Shown piece by piece: positions 11,057 through 32,557 of a stretch of 33,741 nucleotides of DNA (the first letter of the stretch is position 1; every line of letters begins with the position of its first letter). This stretch comes from Persephonella sp. (GTDB lineage Bacteria > Aquificota > Aquificia > Aquificales > Hydrogenothermaceae), in assembly GCA_030949555.1 (NCBI GenBank), contig JAUZSJ010000058.1, forward strand, positions 1 to 33,741, written 5' to 3'. The notes below the pieces were generated by a model, which saw only the letters and a program-made list of their open reading frames with translations, was not told the origin of the DNA and did no database searches. The position numbers were made by a program, and so were the translations under genes.

Positions 11057-13453
<2,397 letters not shown>

Positions 13454-13457
<4 letters not shown>

Positions 13458-20097: not shown

Positions 20098-22007
20098 ATG
20101 AGAAAAGTTATATCTGCTCTGCTTCACTGGTTTTTGTTTTGTCTCTCTTCTTATGGGGAGGGAGAGTATCATTACTCTTATGAAAAGAGGCTTGAGGGGA
20201 GAGTCTGAACTCTCAAAGAGGACAAGACAGGAAAGCCTCGGGCATATAATAGTTTTTACAAGAAAGAGATCTTGATTTGATGCAGGCCCATACACTGTCT
20301 GACATTCTCAGGCTTGTTCCCCTTTTCAACTTTTTGCCAAACCAGTATGGTGTAGAATCACTCCTTAATCCAGGAAATCCGGTAAATGTTTCTTTCGTAT
20401 TCAGAATTTATATAGACGACCACGAGGTCAGCTCAATTCATACTTACAGTCCTTTCTTACGTATGACAGGTATCCTCTTGATAACATAAACCATGTAGAG
20501 ATTTATTATTCTGCAGGGGCAATATCTGTATCAAACGAGCCCTCCCAGATGATAATAAAGATGTACACAAAAATTCCTTCGAGGGAAAATTCCACAAAAT
20601 TAAGAGCAACAGCAGGAACAAAGAAATCTTACTCTTTTAATTTCTTTTCTGCATACAAAATTGACGGCAACTCTTCATTCCTGCTGAGTTTCAGTAAGTC
20701 ATACTTCAGGTTTCCTCAGCCAGAGATAAATGGTCAGACACTCAACAGAAATCAGTTCAGGAAAAATATATTTTTGAAGTACAGCTATTTTGATACAGAT
20801 GTTGAGCTCTCTGCTGTAGATGTTAAAAGGGGAGGGTTTATGGGACTTTCCTTTGATGCATCTCCAGATTATTCTAACATACAGTCCCTTGATACATATG
20901 TATCAGTAAGACAGAAGTTTGATAAAAATACAAAATTTGTTTTTTCTTACGACCACCAGAAGAGAAAGTACAGGGAGATGAACAGACAGTCTGATGGAGG
21001 TATCTTTGTACCGGGAATATACAGCTTTTTTAATCCACCTACTTACTATTACGAAGATCTTAACTTCCACAAATTTGCCGTTTCTTTAGACAGAAAATTC
21101 AAAAAAGGAAAGAACTCCCTCCTTGCAGGAACATTTCTCAGGTATTACTTCCAGAACACATCAAAAAATGAATATGCAGACTCTTCAGGAGTTCACGACC
21201 TGAAGAAAACTCTGTTTAGAGTAAAAAACTTTTATATAGGCTCTTTTTACATTGAAGACAGCTACTACATTGATGATAAAAACCTTTTTATAGCAGGTTT
21301 GAAGTACGATAGATACAAGTTCTACGGACAGAAAAGCAGGGGAAAGATAAATGGAAGAGCTGGATTTATCTCTTTTCTGAACCACAGTCTTATGTTAAAA
21401 GGTTTTATATCCCGCTACTACATACTTCCATCTATGATTCTTATTGAATCTTCAAAAGAAAAGCTTAATCCAATCAAGTCAACAGTTTTCAACAGAGGCA
21501 AAGTACAGGGCAGGAAAAAATGAGTTCAGATTATTTTATTCATACTACAGGGTAGAGGACCTGATAGTTCTTGATAAAAAATCTGGATTTTTTCTGGACA
21601 CAGATAAAAGCGAAAACTTCCACGGGTACGGTCTTTTCTTTAAAAGATACATTGATGAATTTACAACATTTGAGCTGAACTACTGGATAACAGATGTTGG
21701 TAAGGATAAGTATTCACCGGAGAGGGGAGGATATCTGAGAATAGGCAGGGAGTTTAAAAAAGCCCGGCTTTATGCAGATGTTGTCTATAGAGGTTCTTAC
21801 AGACCATACGGGCTCAGCGTTTCGTCTTCTTATAATCTCCGTCTATCAGCAGGATATCAGTTAACAGGAGGCTGGCATCTTAAAGCTACTGGTGAGAATC
21901 TGCTGAACTCTTCAGAGAAAAGGGCATATATCAGTTATAAAGGGGATATAGGCTATTTCAGTACCAGTTACAGAAGAATACTGATAACATTAGAGAAGGT
22001 GTTTTGA
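20098..22007 (+). CDS. TonB-dependent outer-membrane receptor, frameshifted
   Basis: This is an outer-membrane beta-barrel receptor of about 636 residues. The N-terminus is a signal peptide (MRKVISALLHWFLFCLSSYG, cleavage near residue 20). A plug-like segment follows (TLSDILRLVPLFNFLPNQYG; IDDHEVSSIHTYSPF; NHVEIYYSAGA), then a long barrel rich in alternating aromatic/polar strands (20549-22007), ending in phenylalanine as expected for outer-membrane porin-like barrels. No clear TonB box is visible. ATG at 20098 follows AAGGGA. Frame breaks lie near 20215, 20450 and 21480. The stop overlaps the next gene's TTG by four bases. The ligand is unknown; the operon partners suggest the receptor feeds a c-di-GMP sensor instead of, or as well as, import. 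Confidence 0.8.
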
Positions 22008-22465
22008 GGAAGATTGTAGTTTTTTTAGCTGTTTTTGTATATGTCCTTAAAGGTTTTCCTCAGGAGATAGATAAATCTGTCCTTTATGAGATAAAGATTC
22101 TGGAAAAGCTCGTTATTGATGTTACAAAGAAAAGGTATCCTTCCGTGTATTTTTACGGGGTAAAGAGAGAAAGAATATTTCTTATAAACAGATATTCCAC
22201 ATTAAGACAGGCATACTCGATAGATGATGCAGACTTTGTATTTCTGAAAAACAGAAAAAATCCATTTAAGGCAGAAAAGCCAACCCTTGCCCTTGACTTT
22301 CGCTCTCTGAAAAACTGCAGTCTCTGTATAGGCGTCTTTTCCTGGAAAAATGGAAGGCCAATACTGATACTTTTTCAAGAAAATCTGAATAAGTTTCGAA
22401 TAGTTTTACCAGAGGAATACAGATACTTTATTGAAAGCAAGATGATAAATGTCGGAAAAAGATGA
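22004..22465 (+). CDS. Secreted protein, YfiR-like position, between receptor and GGDEF-EAL gene
   Basis: This is an intact protein of 153 residues with an N-terminal signal sequence (MRKIVVFLAVFVYVLKGFPQ), so it is probably periplasmic. Its layout, a DADFVFL strand, KPTLALDFRSL, IGVFSWKNGRPILILFQ and a C-terminal LPEEYRYFIE, recalls small periplasmic proteins (YfiR/DUF4154-like) found beside membrane diguanylate cyclases, but I cannot confirm membership. Two cysteines (CSLC) lie in the second half. TTG at 22004 overlaps the receptor stop with AGAAGGTG upstream; its own stop overlaps the following ATG in ATGA. A ligand-binding or regulatory link between receptor and cyclase is inferred from this coupling. 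Confidence 0.7.
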   Translation: MRKIVVFLAVFVYVLKGFPQEIDKSVLYEIKILEKLVIDVTKKRYPSVYFYGVKRERIFLINRYSTLRQAYSIDDADFVFLKNRKNPFKAEKPTLALDFRSLKNCSLCIGVFSWKNGRPILILFQENLNKFRIVLPEEYRYFIESKMINVGKR

Positions 22466-24351
22466 ATTTGAAGAATAGGAAGAAAAATTTTGTCTATCTA
22501 ATCTCTGTTTTACTCTTCTCATTCATTGTATATCCTATGCATGTATTCGCTTATACCAATAATTGAAGATAAACTGGAAAGGAAGATTATTGACATATCA
22601 ACAGGAGATGTCATAAATGCCAGTTACGAAGAAGTATATACAGAAACTTCCCTGAAAGCGACTTTCTCCTTGCAGTTCTTTATGACGGGAATTACGAGAA
22701 GAAGCTGAAGAAAATCCTTTCAGTTTTTCTGTCAGAAAGACTAAAGTATATTTTTATTATATACAGGGATTCTGAAGGAAAGTACAAGTATCTTCTTGAT
22801 GTTAGCTCCACAGATGATGTATCAAACCTCATATTTATGCCTTTAAAAGAGGAGAAGGATATCCTTGAGGAGGTTTACAGAGAAAAAAAGAAGAGATTTG
22901 AGATTCACAGGGAGATTGACACTATAGGTATCACATATTATATCCCGCTTGTTCAGTCTGGTTCTGTTAAGTCTGTTCTTATTGCTGATTTCTCTTTTGG
23001 TGTACTGCAGGAAATAAAATCTCTCATCCTTATTGTACAGAGAGCAATACTTGTGTCAAGTGGAGTTATACTGTTCTTTCTTGTGGTTGCAGTTTATAAC
23101 TTCTACAGGAATGTTATACTGAAACAGAGAGCATATATAGATTCCCTTACAGGAATATATAACAGAAACTATCTGGAAGACATAAGGGATGTTATAGACC
23201 TCAGCAGATATGTGGTTCTGATGCTTGATATTGATTTCTTTAAAAACATTAACGATACATATGGTCATCAGGTTGGAGATGAGATTTTAAGAGGTATTGC
23301 AAATCTGCTGAAAAAAAATCTCAGAGATGAAGACATAATAATAAGGTACGGTGGAGAGGAGTTCCTTATCCTGATAAAGAAAAGTAGAGAGGATAAAGAA
23401 GGTAAATGGAGCCTTCAGGTGGCCCAGAAACTTCTTCAGGAGATAAGAGATTTTAAGTACAGAGGAATAAATCTGACAGCCTCTATAGGCCTTAATTTAG
23501 ATACAGATAGGGCAAGGAGCCTTATGGATGCCATAAAGAAGGCTGACATAACTCTGTACAAAGCAAAGAGACATGGAAGAGACAGGATTGAAATTTATAA
23601 GGAAACAAAGGGATATGAGAGGGACATATCCCTTGCAGAGCTTAAGGACATTATAGAAAGTGGAGATGTTGTATGTTTTTATCAACCAGTTATAAATCTG
23701 AAAAACGATACTGTTGTTTATTATGAATCACTTGCCCGTATAAAGTACAGAGAAAAGTATCTTTCTCCTGCACAGTATATAGATATGATAAAAGGAACCT
23801 TTCTTTACTTTAAGTTCACAAAGATTGTTATTGAGTATAATCTGAACATACTGAAAGAATATCCCCGTATGATGATTAGCATAAATATGTCCCCTTCAGA
23901 TTTTCTCAATCAGACGATAATTGATATTTTAACGTCTGTTGATAAAGATACAGTGAAGAGGATAAAACTTGAAGTTTTGGAAACAGAAGATGTACATAAC
24001 TACAACGTACTGAAAGAAAACATTAACAAACTGAAAAATTTTGGATATGACATAGTCCTTGATGATTTTGGTGCAGGATACGTTGATTTCTATTATCTGA
24101 CAGAAATAGATGCGAGATGTATAAAAATAGACGGTTCGGTGATAAAAAAGATTCCTTACAATCAACAGTACTATAAACTTGCTAAACATCTTGTTCAGTT
24201 CTGTAAAGATATTAATAAGATACCTATTGCAGAGTTTGTTGAGAATGGAGAAATTTGCAGGGTTCTTATTGAGCTTGGGATAGAGTATGGGCAGGGCTAT
24301 TACTTCTCAAAACCTCTACCTGCAGATGAAATAAAAGCAGTTTCCAGTTGA
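22462..24351 (+). CDS. Membrane sensor with GGDEF and EAL domains, frameshifted near N-terminus
   Basis: This is a c-di-GMP turnover protein of about 629 residues: TM helix 1 (about residues 8-28), a periplasmic sensor of about 160 residues, TM helix 2 (about 194-215), GGDEF (about 225-385) and EAL (about 395-629). The cyclase site reads RYGGEEF near residue 296 and an inhibitory I-site RDED lies exactly five residues before GGEEF. The phosphodiesterase domain starts ESL instead of EAL but keeps INMSPSDF (Asn), LEVLE (Glu), LDDFGAGY (Asp-Asp), IKIDGS (Lys), AEFVE (Glu) and YGQGYYFSKP (Gln), so both activities look possible. ATG at 22462 overlaps the upstream stop. Breaks at about 22555 and 22650 affect only the sensor region. 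The sensor family is not recognised. Confidence 0.88.
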
Positions 24352-25026: not shown

Positions 25027-28000
25027 TTACCTGTTTCAAAGAATTTGTACTGGAAAGATGTTCTTTCCTTCAGTTTTATGCCGACACCGTACCATCCGCC
25101 GATTTTTTCTTCCTCAACCTGTCCCAGCGGTTTTGAAAGGGCAACGAATATTCTTCTTGTGATATCTCTCTTTCCGTATATAGATGCAGATATACCTGTT
25201 GATGGGGAGTACTGGGGAAGTATGTTTACCTCAAATCCTGTATTGAACAGACCTGTTTTTCCTCAAGGAAACCCAAGGAAGTAATGTGTAAAGCAGGTTT
25301 TCCAACTGTTGTCTATATACACGAAGCATGTTTTCAAGAGCTGAAATGGTGTGTCCTTAAGGAGCAGTGTGCGGACGCATCTCATTTCCGATTTTGGCTG
25401 GACTATGGAGAAGAAGTTGATTTATCTTGGGGTTATAAGCAGAGCCTGAAATATCAATAAATATGAATGTGTCTGCAACAGAAGTAGAAACCCTTGCAGA
25501 TATATAAGGTTCGTTGTTTACAATCTTAATATTTGCCAAAATCAATACTGTACCTGTTTTTCATAAAGTATATCTCTCCGTAAATAATACTGATATTCCC
25601 GTTAACAGAAGGGTTTTTACCTGTCCCTTTAATCTTCAGGTCAAACTCTGCACAAGCCTTGCCCCATTTTCCATATATGTAGAGTGGTATAAAACTTTCA
25701 GCTGATACATCCAGTGATGGAAATCTAAAATGTTCTGGATTTTTGACTGAAACAGTTTCTCTTTTTTCTTTCATTAGGCTGTTTAAATTTTTCTCAAGCC
25801 TTAACTTTCCAGATATTAGAATTTTTCCTCTCAGTTTTCCTTTTAAACTGTTATTTTTTTCATAAAGTTTCAGTTTAAGATCTGAGTTTATATTTCCCTG
25901 AAATATATTCCTGAATTTTACAGGGAGAAACTGGGTATAACTGGAAAAATTTCCAAAAATCTTTTCTGTACTGCCTTACTTCCCTTTATTTTTGGCTGTA
26001 CTCTCTCCGAAGACTGAACCAGCTGTTCTTCCATTAATATCCAGTTTCAGGACACCTTCAGAAATTTCAAGAAGAACCTTCTGAAGATTTACTATTCCCA
26101 CAGTGTATGTGGTTTTTACTTCAAAGTTTTCAGAAAATAGGGATAGATAAAGTTTCTTTTTTAAATCTTTCAACCTGCCGTTAAATGAAAGTCTGTATTT
26201 TAAACCACCAGATGTGTTTATATACCTGGTAACAATGGAAAGCAGATTTCTATCAATCCTTCCCTCAGAATATATGGAAACTGTGCTGTTTTTTATGTCA
26301 TATGAGAATTTTTTTATCTCTCCTGTTATTACCCCACTGAAACGAACAGGTTTGCCTTCAACGATTCCGTTCCTCATTTTTATATTTAAAGGAGAAGACT
26401 CAAAAGTACAAATAGTTTTTTGATACTGTAAAACTTGAGACAAACAGTTTTCCTTCTGCTTTCTCAAAGTATCCAGTTGGAATATTTATACGGCCTGATA
26501 TTCTGTAAAAATTTATCTCTGTTTTTTCAGGGGAGTATTATACTGAGAAGGTCTGTTTTTACCTCTGCACTGATTTCACTATCATTAATAGAAACTGTGT
26601 AATATACATCCGTTTTAACAGCGGTTTCTTTACCTCTGTATCCCCTTTCTTTTAAAAATCCCTTTATACTTTCTATCTCCCCACTAAATCTGCTGTCTAT
26701 ACGGTTTGAATAAACACCTTTTCTGATAAAAAATTTTAGATTACCATCAATCTTTTTTACTTTCAAAGCTCAAACAGAGAATGGATGCTCAGTTTCATCT
26801 TATCAAAGTCTTCCAGCCCCTTACCTGTGATAACAGTTTTCACTTTTCCTCCTGACAGTAACACATTTCCTGAAATCTCCTTAAGTCTATAACCATAAAA
26901 AACAAAATCTTTTCTGTAAAAGGAAGCCTCCATAAACATCTTTTTCTGAAAAATTGCCTTTCGTACTGACAGACACTTCCTGTTTTAGCTTATCTAAAAT
27001 TACTACTCCCTTATCTATCTCTGTTTTTATATTCCAGAATTTGTCCTTTACTCTGATTTTTACTGGTTCCTGTGGCAGTTTTTGGAGTTATATGGCGGAA
27101 AACAGCAGGCATTTTTTCCTTAAAAACTCTTTTGCACTTTGAAATATCACTGTCTTTGAAGTCAAGACTTAGATATAGAGAGAATGGTTCCAGCTTCAGC
27201 GTCAGTAATCCGTCAGTATTTCCTTTTTTAAATGACAGCCTGATATTTTTTGTTGTATTTTCAAACAAAAACTGGAACTGTGTATTTTTTAAAGGCAGGT
27301 TTTTGTAATGGAAGTAGTGTGCTGTTCCCTGAAGGCTGACAGATAAGTCTGGAATACTCCCGTATATTTTTCCTGTTCCATCTATTATCCCGCCAAACCC
27401 ATACCTTTTTCCATAAATGAAACCTTCTGTATTTATGTTATCAAAGGTAACGTCTGCATCAACACTTCCCTTTAACAGTTTTCCAGTGATAAAGCAAAAA
27501 GAGTCTTCATTTTTTAGACTGAGTGAAAATCTCCCGGATTTATTTTCAATACTGAAATCAGAGATGATTTTTCCCTTTCTGAAATAAATTCCGTATATAT
27601 TAAGCTCCCTGCCATCTAATTCTAAAGATAAATCCCCTTTTTCAAAATTAAAAACGGCTTTTCCCCATACTGTTCCGTCAATATCAACAGGTCTGTACAG
27701 ACTGAAGGCTTTTTTTAGATTCATTCCTTTACTGGATACTGTCAGAATTCTGTCTGCATACAAAAACTGTAAAGCTAAATCCCCCAGGGAAGCTCTGCCT
27801 TTTGCTTTAAATGTTCTGTTTTTATAAGCGACAGTAATGTCTGAATTTAAAGTTGCTGCTGAAAGTCTGTCGTACAATATAGATGAGATAGATAAACTAC
27901 CTCCAGTTCTGAAAAATCTTTTTTTAAAAGAAAAATCTATATTTCCAGTATATAACAGATTATTTCCCCTGATTTTGTTGAGCTGAAAACTGTCTGCCTT

Positions 28001-28858
28001 TATGTGCACCTTTCCATCAAATCTGTTTTTTCCACTAAATTTTATACGGCTCTCTGTGTACTTTGCGAAGAAACTGTTTATCCTTAAACTGTCCGAAACA
28101 ATACGACTGTTGCCGTTTAAAATATCTTTATATCTATTAACACTGAACAGGATGTGGAAATTCTCCAGGAGTATACTCCCTGTGTTCAGTTTCTCGCCTT
28201 CAAAACTTCCCTTAAAGGAAAAATTCCCCTCGTAATCAAAACTTCCCCATCCAGTAAGAATGTTTTCATTGATAATAGCTCTTGATTTTTTTACAGATAT
28301 ACTGTTCAACTGAATATCTCCAGAGAAATCTGTAACTTTCCCTGAAAAATCACCAAAGGCAAAATAGAAAGGCCTTTTAATATAAAAACTGTTATAACTG
28401 CTGAGGAATGAAAAATCCTTCAAAGAAAACTTCCCTGAAGGTAAGTCTGCATATATGTCAAGTCTATTGATATCTGACTTTACAAAGTATATGAGAAAAA
28501 ATGCATAGTTCAATGGGTTTTTTTCTTTTCTTTTTTTCTTTTTTTCAGATTTTATGTAGATTTTCCCCCTATTTATATTCACAAATAAAAAAGGCTCACT
28601 TTTTTTTAAAAATTTCAAAATATCTGCCCTCAGTTTTATATCACTTAGTTTTACTGAAAATTCTTCTGACTGAATATTTAGATATCCACACTGAATCTGT
28701 AAATCAGATACTTTACAGTTGTCTTTGAGATTTATCCCAAAATTGTTTGCAATAACAGACCTGTTTTCCCACAAGAATACCAGTGTTAGCAGGATAAGAG
28801 AAATGAGCAGTACTGCTATGGAAAAAACCAAAAATGTGTTGATTAGAAATTTTTTCAT
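24984..28858 (-). CDS. tamB: TamB-like (DUF490) translocation and assembly module protein, frameshifted
   Basis: This is a long AsmA/TamB-superfamily protein of about 1290 residues. A single N-terminal TM helix (MKKFLINTFLVFSIAVLLIS...) anchors it in the inner membrane. The rest is repetitive beta-strand sequence expected to span the periplasm as a lipid- or protein-guiding groove. The C-terminal DUF490 part has ISGSAYNPKIN and, after frame correction, ends with SFQYKFFETGNQEFGIVFNL and a terminal phenylalanine before TGA at 24984-24986. The longest clean stretch is 27011-28858. Downstream breaks occur near 26990, 26780, 26500, 25975, 25780-25970, 25530 and in 25050-25360. No TamA/BamA partner is in the window. 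TATAAT on the minus strand at 28892-28897 is a possible -10 element. YhdP-like or related AsmA proteins are the alternative. Confidence 0.82.
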
Positions 28859-31212: not shown

Positions 31213-32557
31213 GTGATAAAGATAGATTACACAAATGTAATGGCAGAAGTTATCGGAGAGAGGGATGGTATATTGAGAGAAGAACTTCTCTCATTCAGAC
31301 ATTTTGTTGTTGAGACCCATTCCCTGATACAGAAGGAAAAAAACAGAAAGTTTTATTTTTGCAGATTACCCTATCAGGACACTTCAGAGATAAAAGAGTA
31401 TGCAGGTTATATAAGGGGTAGGTTTGACAGTTTTGTTGTTATCGGGATTGGGGGTTCTTCCCTTGGAGCAAGGATGCTTTTTGAAAGTCTTACAGATATA
31501 AACCACAACATAAAAGAGAAGCCTAAAATATTTTTTTTGGAAAATGTAGACCCAGAGAAATTCAAATCTGTCCTGGAGCAGGTAGATATAAAAGCACATG
31601 CTTCAATGTTGTCACAAAATCTGGCTCCACGGTTGAGACTATTGCCAACTTTTCTGTCGTTTTATCTATGTTGAAGAAGGAATTAGGAGAGAAATACAGG
31701 GAAAATCTTGTTTTTACAACAGACCCGAAAAGGTTTTTTAAGAAAATTAGGAGAGCAGGAAAAAGATAAAAATGTTTGATGTGCCGGTACCTGTAGGAGG
31801 TAGATTTTCTGTTTTGTCAGCTGTTGGTCTACTTCCAGCTGCAGTGGCAGGAATTGATATAGATGAGCTTCTGTCTGGAGCAAAAAAGATGGATTTGATA
31901 TGTTCAATAGAAGAACACGTTGAGCATAATCCTGCTTATCTGATAGCCCTCTCCCACTACATAACAAACATGAGAAGAGGAAAGACCATATCTGTGATGA
32001 TGCCTTACAGTGAAAAACTGTCTTCTTTTGTTGACTGGTATCGGCAGCTGTGGGCAGAGAGTTTAGGAAAAGACGGTCTTGGTCAGACCCCTGTAAAGGC
32101 TGTAGGAACAGTTGACCAGCACTCCCAGATACAGCTTTACAGAGAAGGGATAAGAGACAAAATAATAACCTTTATACAGGTGGAAAAGGCAGAGATAGAT
32201 TATAAAATCCCTGAGAAACTTCCTGAAGAAATATCCTATCTGTCTGGTCACTCGCTTCACGAGATACTGAACAAAGAGCTCCTTGGTACAAAAGCTGCCC
32301 TTATAAAAAGTAAAGTTCCTAACATAACCATATCTTTAGATAGAATATCCCCATATAACATAGGAATGCTTGTATATCTTTATGAACTTGCTACAGGTTT
32401 TTCTGGCTATCTATACAAAATAAACCCATTTGACCAGCCGGCTGTTGAGGAGGGTAAGAACTTCACATATGCTCTTATGGGAAGAGAAGGATATCAGGAA
32501 AAGTTAGAAGAGTTTAAAGAGCTTTACAAAGAAAAGTACAAAATAGAAATTCAGTAA
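31213..32557 (+). CDS. pgi: Glucose-6-phosphate isomerase, frameshifted
   Basis: This enzyme interconverts glucose-6-phosphate and fructose-6-phosphate in the cytoplasm; about 445 residues, the usual size of the short bacterial form. Landmarks are VVIGIGGSSLGARM, the phosphate loop readable in a shifted frame as TKSGSTVET (near 31615-31640), VPVGGRFSVLSAVGLLP, GTVDQHSQIQLYREG and the C-terminal INPFDQPAVEEGK with the catalytic-lysine region. GTG at 31213 has GAGGTGGGA upstream. Breaks fall near 31600 and 31730. It is the last gene of the TPR-serS-pgi run and ends just before a hairpin terminator. In an autotroph it would mainly work in the gluconeogenic direction; this is inference. Confidence 0.93.

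Follow-up and report, generated by a model that had tools for sequence, protein, structure and literature searches.

A TonB-type receptor, a secreted protein and a Cache-GGDEF-EAL enzyme as a candidate trans-envelope c-di-GMP signalling unit in Aquificota and Campylobacterota

Three adjoining genes of a Persephonella sp. contig, encoding an outer-membrane TonB-type receptor (R), a small secreted periplasmic protein (S) and an inner-membrane Cache-GGDEF-EAL enzyme (E), probably constitute a single YfiBNR-like trans-envelope signalling unit, in which the receptor would serve as outer-membrane sensor and its state would be relayed through S to E and on to c-di-GMP. What we observe is an operon with a defined domain make-up and predicted folds that is conserved across lineages, has been duplicated as a whole and has exchanged its output. 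A trans-envelope c-di-GMP unit had been suggested in a first-pass annotation of this DNA, and as a candidate it is supported by the retained R-S-E order, the predicted YfiR-like fold of S and the presence of YfiR itself in similar operons.

The trio and the state of its assembled copy

The analyzed stretch of DNA (33,741 nucleotides, hereafter the window) corresponds to contig C58 in a genome bin of 1.43 Mb that is 55% complete. All three genes, and the two four-base overlaps that join them, were found where the first-pass annotation had placed them (Table 1). As assembled, S is intact but neither R nor E is an open frame, with about eight one- or two-base indels in these two genes relative to the intact orthologue of genome G009 (85% DNA identity), whose R comprises 637 amino acids. 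The operon is intact in relatives, the phosphoglucose isomerase gene of the window (31213-32557) is also split into two pieces, and a second trio of the same MAG is broken too; the frameshifts in R and E are therefore most likely sequence errors of the assembly rather than decay, and a pseudogene reading of the window trio was judged less likely on the same grounds. Indel errors appear to be systematic in this contig. Elsewhere in the window, gyrA (fragment 12837-13457) is possibly another gene hit by such errors, and a 615-aa ORF on the minus strand (27011-28858) has no Pfam match at E 0.001.

Table 1. Features of the trio in the window, and receptor-family copies found apart from S in other genomes
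Feature	Position	Strand	Basis or remark
R, outer-membrane TonB-type receptor gene	20098..22007	+	G009 R by tblastn in three pieces, 60-75% identity; Plug matches in orthologues; indels relative to G009 near 20159, 20265, 20455, 21485
R conserved N-terminal segment, at the usual TonB box location	20164..20275	+	consensus LLxKYExxSxLSxKTKxESxGHxIxFTR
TTGA overlap, R stop/S start	22004..22007	+	read from sequence
S, small secreted periplasmic protein gene (153 aa, intact)	22004..22465	+	YfiR-like predicted fold; no Pfam family
ATGA overlap, S stop/E start	22462..22465	+	read from sequence
E, inner-membrane Cache-GGDEF-EAL enzyme gene	22462..24351	+	indels relative to G009 near 22533, 22621, 22631, 24336
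E, two membrane segments and periplasmic Cache-type sensor domain	22486..23106	+	A4 profile match spanning the broken frame
E, GGDEF domain; active-site GGEEF and I-site RxxD present	23131..23586	+	domain match; orthologue conservation; residues read
E, EAL domain; catalytic residues conserved	23638..24315	+	domain match; orthologue conservation; residues read
Extra R copies without S	G004:C3:63614-65482; G018:C36:95578-97389; G001:C10:31723-33582; G007:C1:1680891-1682747		

By sequence profile (Plug, barrel), R falls into the TonB-dependent receptor class, as had been proposed. Plug matches in orthologues are mostly weak (best E 7.7e-6), lying above the cut-off in loci L064 (26.8 bits) and L088 (24.3 bits) and under it in the other receptors, and one barrel match falls just under its cut-off (R of L036, 25.5 bits against 27); the R of L195 matches neither profile. 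An STN domain was not matched in the scanned R proteins. Ahead of the plug, the core of the N-terminal segment (LLxKYExxSxLSxKTKxESxGH) is kept in 86 of 93 receptors. A simple pattern, which could overlook a degenerate box, detected no TonB box ahead of this segment in 92 of the 93, in agreement with the earlier remark that R has no obvious one. Nevertheless, TonB proteins (TonB_C) are encoded in all 26 genomes checked, which rules out the argument that transport is precluded by a lack of TonB, and R may therefore also transport.

The compartments assigned to the other two proteins were also borne out. A hydrophobic N-terminus consistent with secretion is present in 110 of the 114 S homologues, and in E, where GGDEF and EAL domains were both matched, two hydrophobic regions flank a periplasmic part of about 150 residues in orthologues. 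The predicted model of this periplasmic domain in the G009 orthologue has a Cache-like fold, with the sensor domains of WalK, KinD and chemoreceptors as nearest neighbors, and dCache_1 matches were obtained for 14 of 37 sensor-domain members; no match to HAMP was found in E. Nearly all of 84 enzymes retain the motifs GG[DE]EF, RxxD (I-site) and ExL and the residues N, E, DD, K, E and Q, and E is accordingly predicted, from the catalytic residues of both domains, to be a bifunctional GGDEF-EAL enzyme.

Conservation of the trio and exchange of its output

Homologues of S were identified in 31 of 61 genomes using S as query and, with a broader profile, in 43 of 136 Aquificota genomes and 29 of 200 Campylobacterota genomes from an evenly drawn sample. 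A peptide-pattern scan of the GTDB genome collection yielded 48 confirmed S loci, all in Aquificota, Campylobacterota or older names thereof, although the pattern may overlook divergent members in other phyla. Among the 114 distinct S loci of the two phyla, 104 have R directly upstream of S, 100 have a protein with the E-type periplasmic Cache-type domain downstream, and 78 have the strict R-S-E order with a GGDEF-EAL enzyme, an arrangement that far exceeds chance expectation. A mostly separate occurrence of the three genes, which the first-pass annotation had named as evidence against a unit, was looked for and not seen. The junctions are tight: R and S overlap by four bases in 25 of the 104 pairs, with nearly all the rest between -28 and +3, and the S-E junction is -4 in 46 loci and -7 in 32. 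Conversely, the sensor-domain profile of E matches almost exclusively next to S in 37 relatives. The genes flanking the trio vary between lineages, so that what is conserved as a unit is the trio alone.

Departures from this arrangement are few. The ten S loci without a directly upstream R comprise four at contig edges, three in which R is present but frameshifted or fused, and three with no R next to S (L042, L043 and L184). The first two belong to one Aquificota genus in which S and E are preceded by about 240 bases and an unrelated 306-aa gene. Several genomes also carry extra R-family copies without S (Table 1), one of which, in G004, lies directly upstream of a trio; these copies, some adjoining a trio, may be further receptors that signal through one S-E pair.

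The three proteins have diverged in concert. Over 69 full trios, comparison of the R, S and E distance matrices gave Mantel r of 0.82-0.90 (shuffled maximum 0.11), a congruence to which shared ancestry contributes in part. Two paralogous trios in Persephonella are distant in R, S and E alike, which indicates that these trios diverged as units.

The third gene most commonly encodes a Cache-GGDEF-EAL protein (84 loci). It lacks a detected EAL domain in nine loci, some of which are contig ends or frameshifts, and L181, L186, L191 and L200 contain apparently complete Cache-GGDEF genes of 382-392 aa. Five loci of Campylobacterota (L189, L192, L194, L195 and L196) have a third gene with the E-type periplasmic domain (E 1e-27 to 4e-35 by profile), joined to a histidine kinase in the four of them that were classified, with the reading of L192 resting on its close similarity to L189. 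Because an EAL-domain protein comes next after the Cache-histidine kinase (a REC-PAS-EAL protein in L189 and L195, where this was checked), the phosphorelay of L189, L194, L195 and L196 seems to end in c-di-GMP breakdown. In L077 and L198 the third gene is a kinase with a different sensor region, and in an Aquificaceae group R is instead preceded by a GGDEF gene whose periplasmic domain is of the E type (L053 and L204; L054 is similar). The bifunctional output initially ascribed to the unit thus holds for 84 loci but does not extend to the GGDEF-only and histidine-kinase versions, and what the loci have in common is R, S and a signal transducer of the inner membrane, with control of c-di-GMP as the end point in nearly every case. 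This exchange of outputs provides the strongest evidence that R and S act as the input of the enzyme.

The candidate adaptor and its relation to YfiR

In searches against Pfam and NCBIfam, S matched no family, and a sequence-profile search of the PDB with S returned chance matches alone. Its AlphaFold model (pLDDT 90) consists of one alpha/beta lobe, for which Foldseek returned 3LKV as best match, followed by single-domain binding proteins of Rhodothermus and many YfiR chains (probability 0.85-0.99, TM-score about 0.5), with 3LFT lower in the list. Its conserved surface lies around W114, G117-P119 and the LPxEYxxYIE motif at the C-terminus. The nearest structural relatives of YfiR are 3LFT and 3LKV (PMC4655355), so that both neighbors are common to YfiR and the predicted model of S.

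These similarities raise the question of whether S is a true, highly divergent YfiR (DUF4154), in which case the operon would be the YfiR-type operon of Aquificota and Campylobacterota. This is a matter of naming that is compatible with the proposed relay, and we rate it as a serious possibility, falling slightly short of an even chance. The predicted fold is similar and S occupies the same operon position as DUF4154 genes; the DUF4154 profile (PF13689), however, matched none of 37 S members at E up to 10, and DUF4154 was absent from the 136 Aquificota genomes searched. Profile comparison of full-length S with YfiR gave a probability of 86-88%, partly a signal-peptide effect, which dropped to a weak 10% after removal of the signal peptide. 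The trimmed alignment is nonetheless co-linear, and its score of 23.5 exceeds those of all 100 column shuffles (maximum 16.6) and of decoys (maximum 17.0). With a score above shuffles and decoys but a low probability, these profile comparisons make common descent of S and YfiR plausible and no more. If our reading is right, S represents a new periplasmic adaptor family.

The proposed relay, its alternatives and related systems

In the relay that we propose, the barrel of R would bind an extracellular ligand, changing the state of the periplasm-facing plug and N-terminal segment. S, with its predicted single-lobe, YfiR-like fold, would pass the new state on to E at its periplasmic Cache domain; it would probably do so as a binding partner of E that R captures or releases. 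E would then shift the balance between synthesis (GGDEF) and breakdown (EAL), so that altered c-di-GMP would lead to altered attachment or motility. Elsewhere, the same R-S-Cache input would act on a GGDEF domain alone or on a histidine kinase paired with a REC-PAS-EAL regulator. Within this scheme we infer ligand binding, the contacts of S with R and with E, the sign of control and the effect on attachment or motility. A broader version, which we advance only tentatively and consider less probable than the relay itself, is that R, S and the Cache domain form a portable input module: a receptor devoid of a TonB box would sense rather than transport, and a new adaptor family would pass its state to any attached Cache output, be it c-di-GMP synthesis, c-di-GMP breakdown or phosphorelay.

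The resemblance of S to periplasmic substrate-binding proteins, including the single-domain ones from Rhodothermus marinus, also suggests a different route, in which R imports a nutrient, S serves as its single-lobe carrier and the ligand itself is sensed by the Cache domain of E, without any protein-protein relay. Cache domains frequently bind small ligands, and TonB is encoded in these genomes. On the other hand, no TonB box was recognized in R, inspection of ORF maps revealed no permease or ABC transporter as a constant neighbor of the trio, and YfiR, which has the same structural neighbors as S, is a protein-binding repressor; we therefore regard direct sensing of an imported nutrient as unlikely. 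It is highly improbable that R, S and E merely share an operon and a transcript, with S unrelated to the other two and no direct functional link among them: adjacent genes can share a transcript without interacting and R copies do occur alone, but the order is kept across two phyla and many genomic contexts, the trees are congruent, duplication has involved the whole unit, and R-S-Cache has stayed together while the output domain was exchanged.

Few systems are known that couple an outer-membrane event to cytoplasmic c-di-GMP, the best-studied tripartite case being YfiBNR (P. aeruginosa, E. coli) and HmsCDE (Y. pestis). YfiR acts as a repressor of YfiN, with whose periplasmic domain it interacts, and is itself sequestered by YfiB at the outer membrane (PMC4655355). 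Like these systems, the trio combines in a single operon an outer-membrane part, a small periplasmic protein and an inner-membrane GGDEF enzyme with a periplasmic sensor domain; S is predicted to resemble YfiR in fold, and the trio probably works like YfiBNR. It differs from both in having a TonB-type barrel where YfiB is an OmpA-like lipoprotein, and in an output that can be exchanged for a histidine kinase. Furthermore, S falls outside DUF4154, and where YfiN consists of a periplasmic PAS-like domain, HAMP and GGDEF, E combines a Cache-type domain and GGDEF with an additional EAL domain and gives no match to HAMP. Given an adaptor that misses DUF4154, a TonB-type outer-membrane partner and an enzyme without HAMP, we do not classify the trio as a member of YfiBNR.

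TonB-type receptors are usually tied to transport or to sigma-factor control, and the TonB-dependent transducers of the FecA-FecR-FecI type share with the trio an outer-membrane receptor that passes a signal inward, but R has no STN domain, the trio includes no anti-sigma/sigma pair and its proposed relay ends in c-di-GMP. E resembles LapD and other periplasmic-sensor GGDEF-EAL proteins in being an inner-membrane protein with a periplasmic sensor, GGDEF and EAL. The catalytic domains of LapD are degenerate and it acts on a protease; in E, by contrast, the catalytic residues are intact and the partners are R and S. The literature searched, outside which most subscription papers fell, yielded no description of a TonB receptor combined with a YfiR-type adaptor and a GGDEF protein. 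If the proposal is correct, vent bacteria from two phyla possess a widespread c-di-GMP circuit that is driven by a receptor and includes a new adaptor family, and its natural output swaps would allow direct testing in culturable Sulfurimonas, Arcobacter or Persephonella.

The layout of receptor, adaptor and cyclase seems to be a broader design, as genuine DUF4154 genes of Campylobacterota (L120-L135) adjoin TonB-type receptors and GGDEF genes; similar receptor-YfiR operons may, we presume, exist in Proteobacteria. The Campylobacterota operons (e.g., L121, L130 and L134) share with the trio an adjoining TonB barrel, periplasmic adaptor and GGDEF enzyme, but their adaptor is a recognizable YfiR (PF13689), their gene order varies among loci and, in L130, the only locus checked in this respect, the output is a GGDEF protein without EAL. 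In L125, YfiR is fused to GGDEF.
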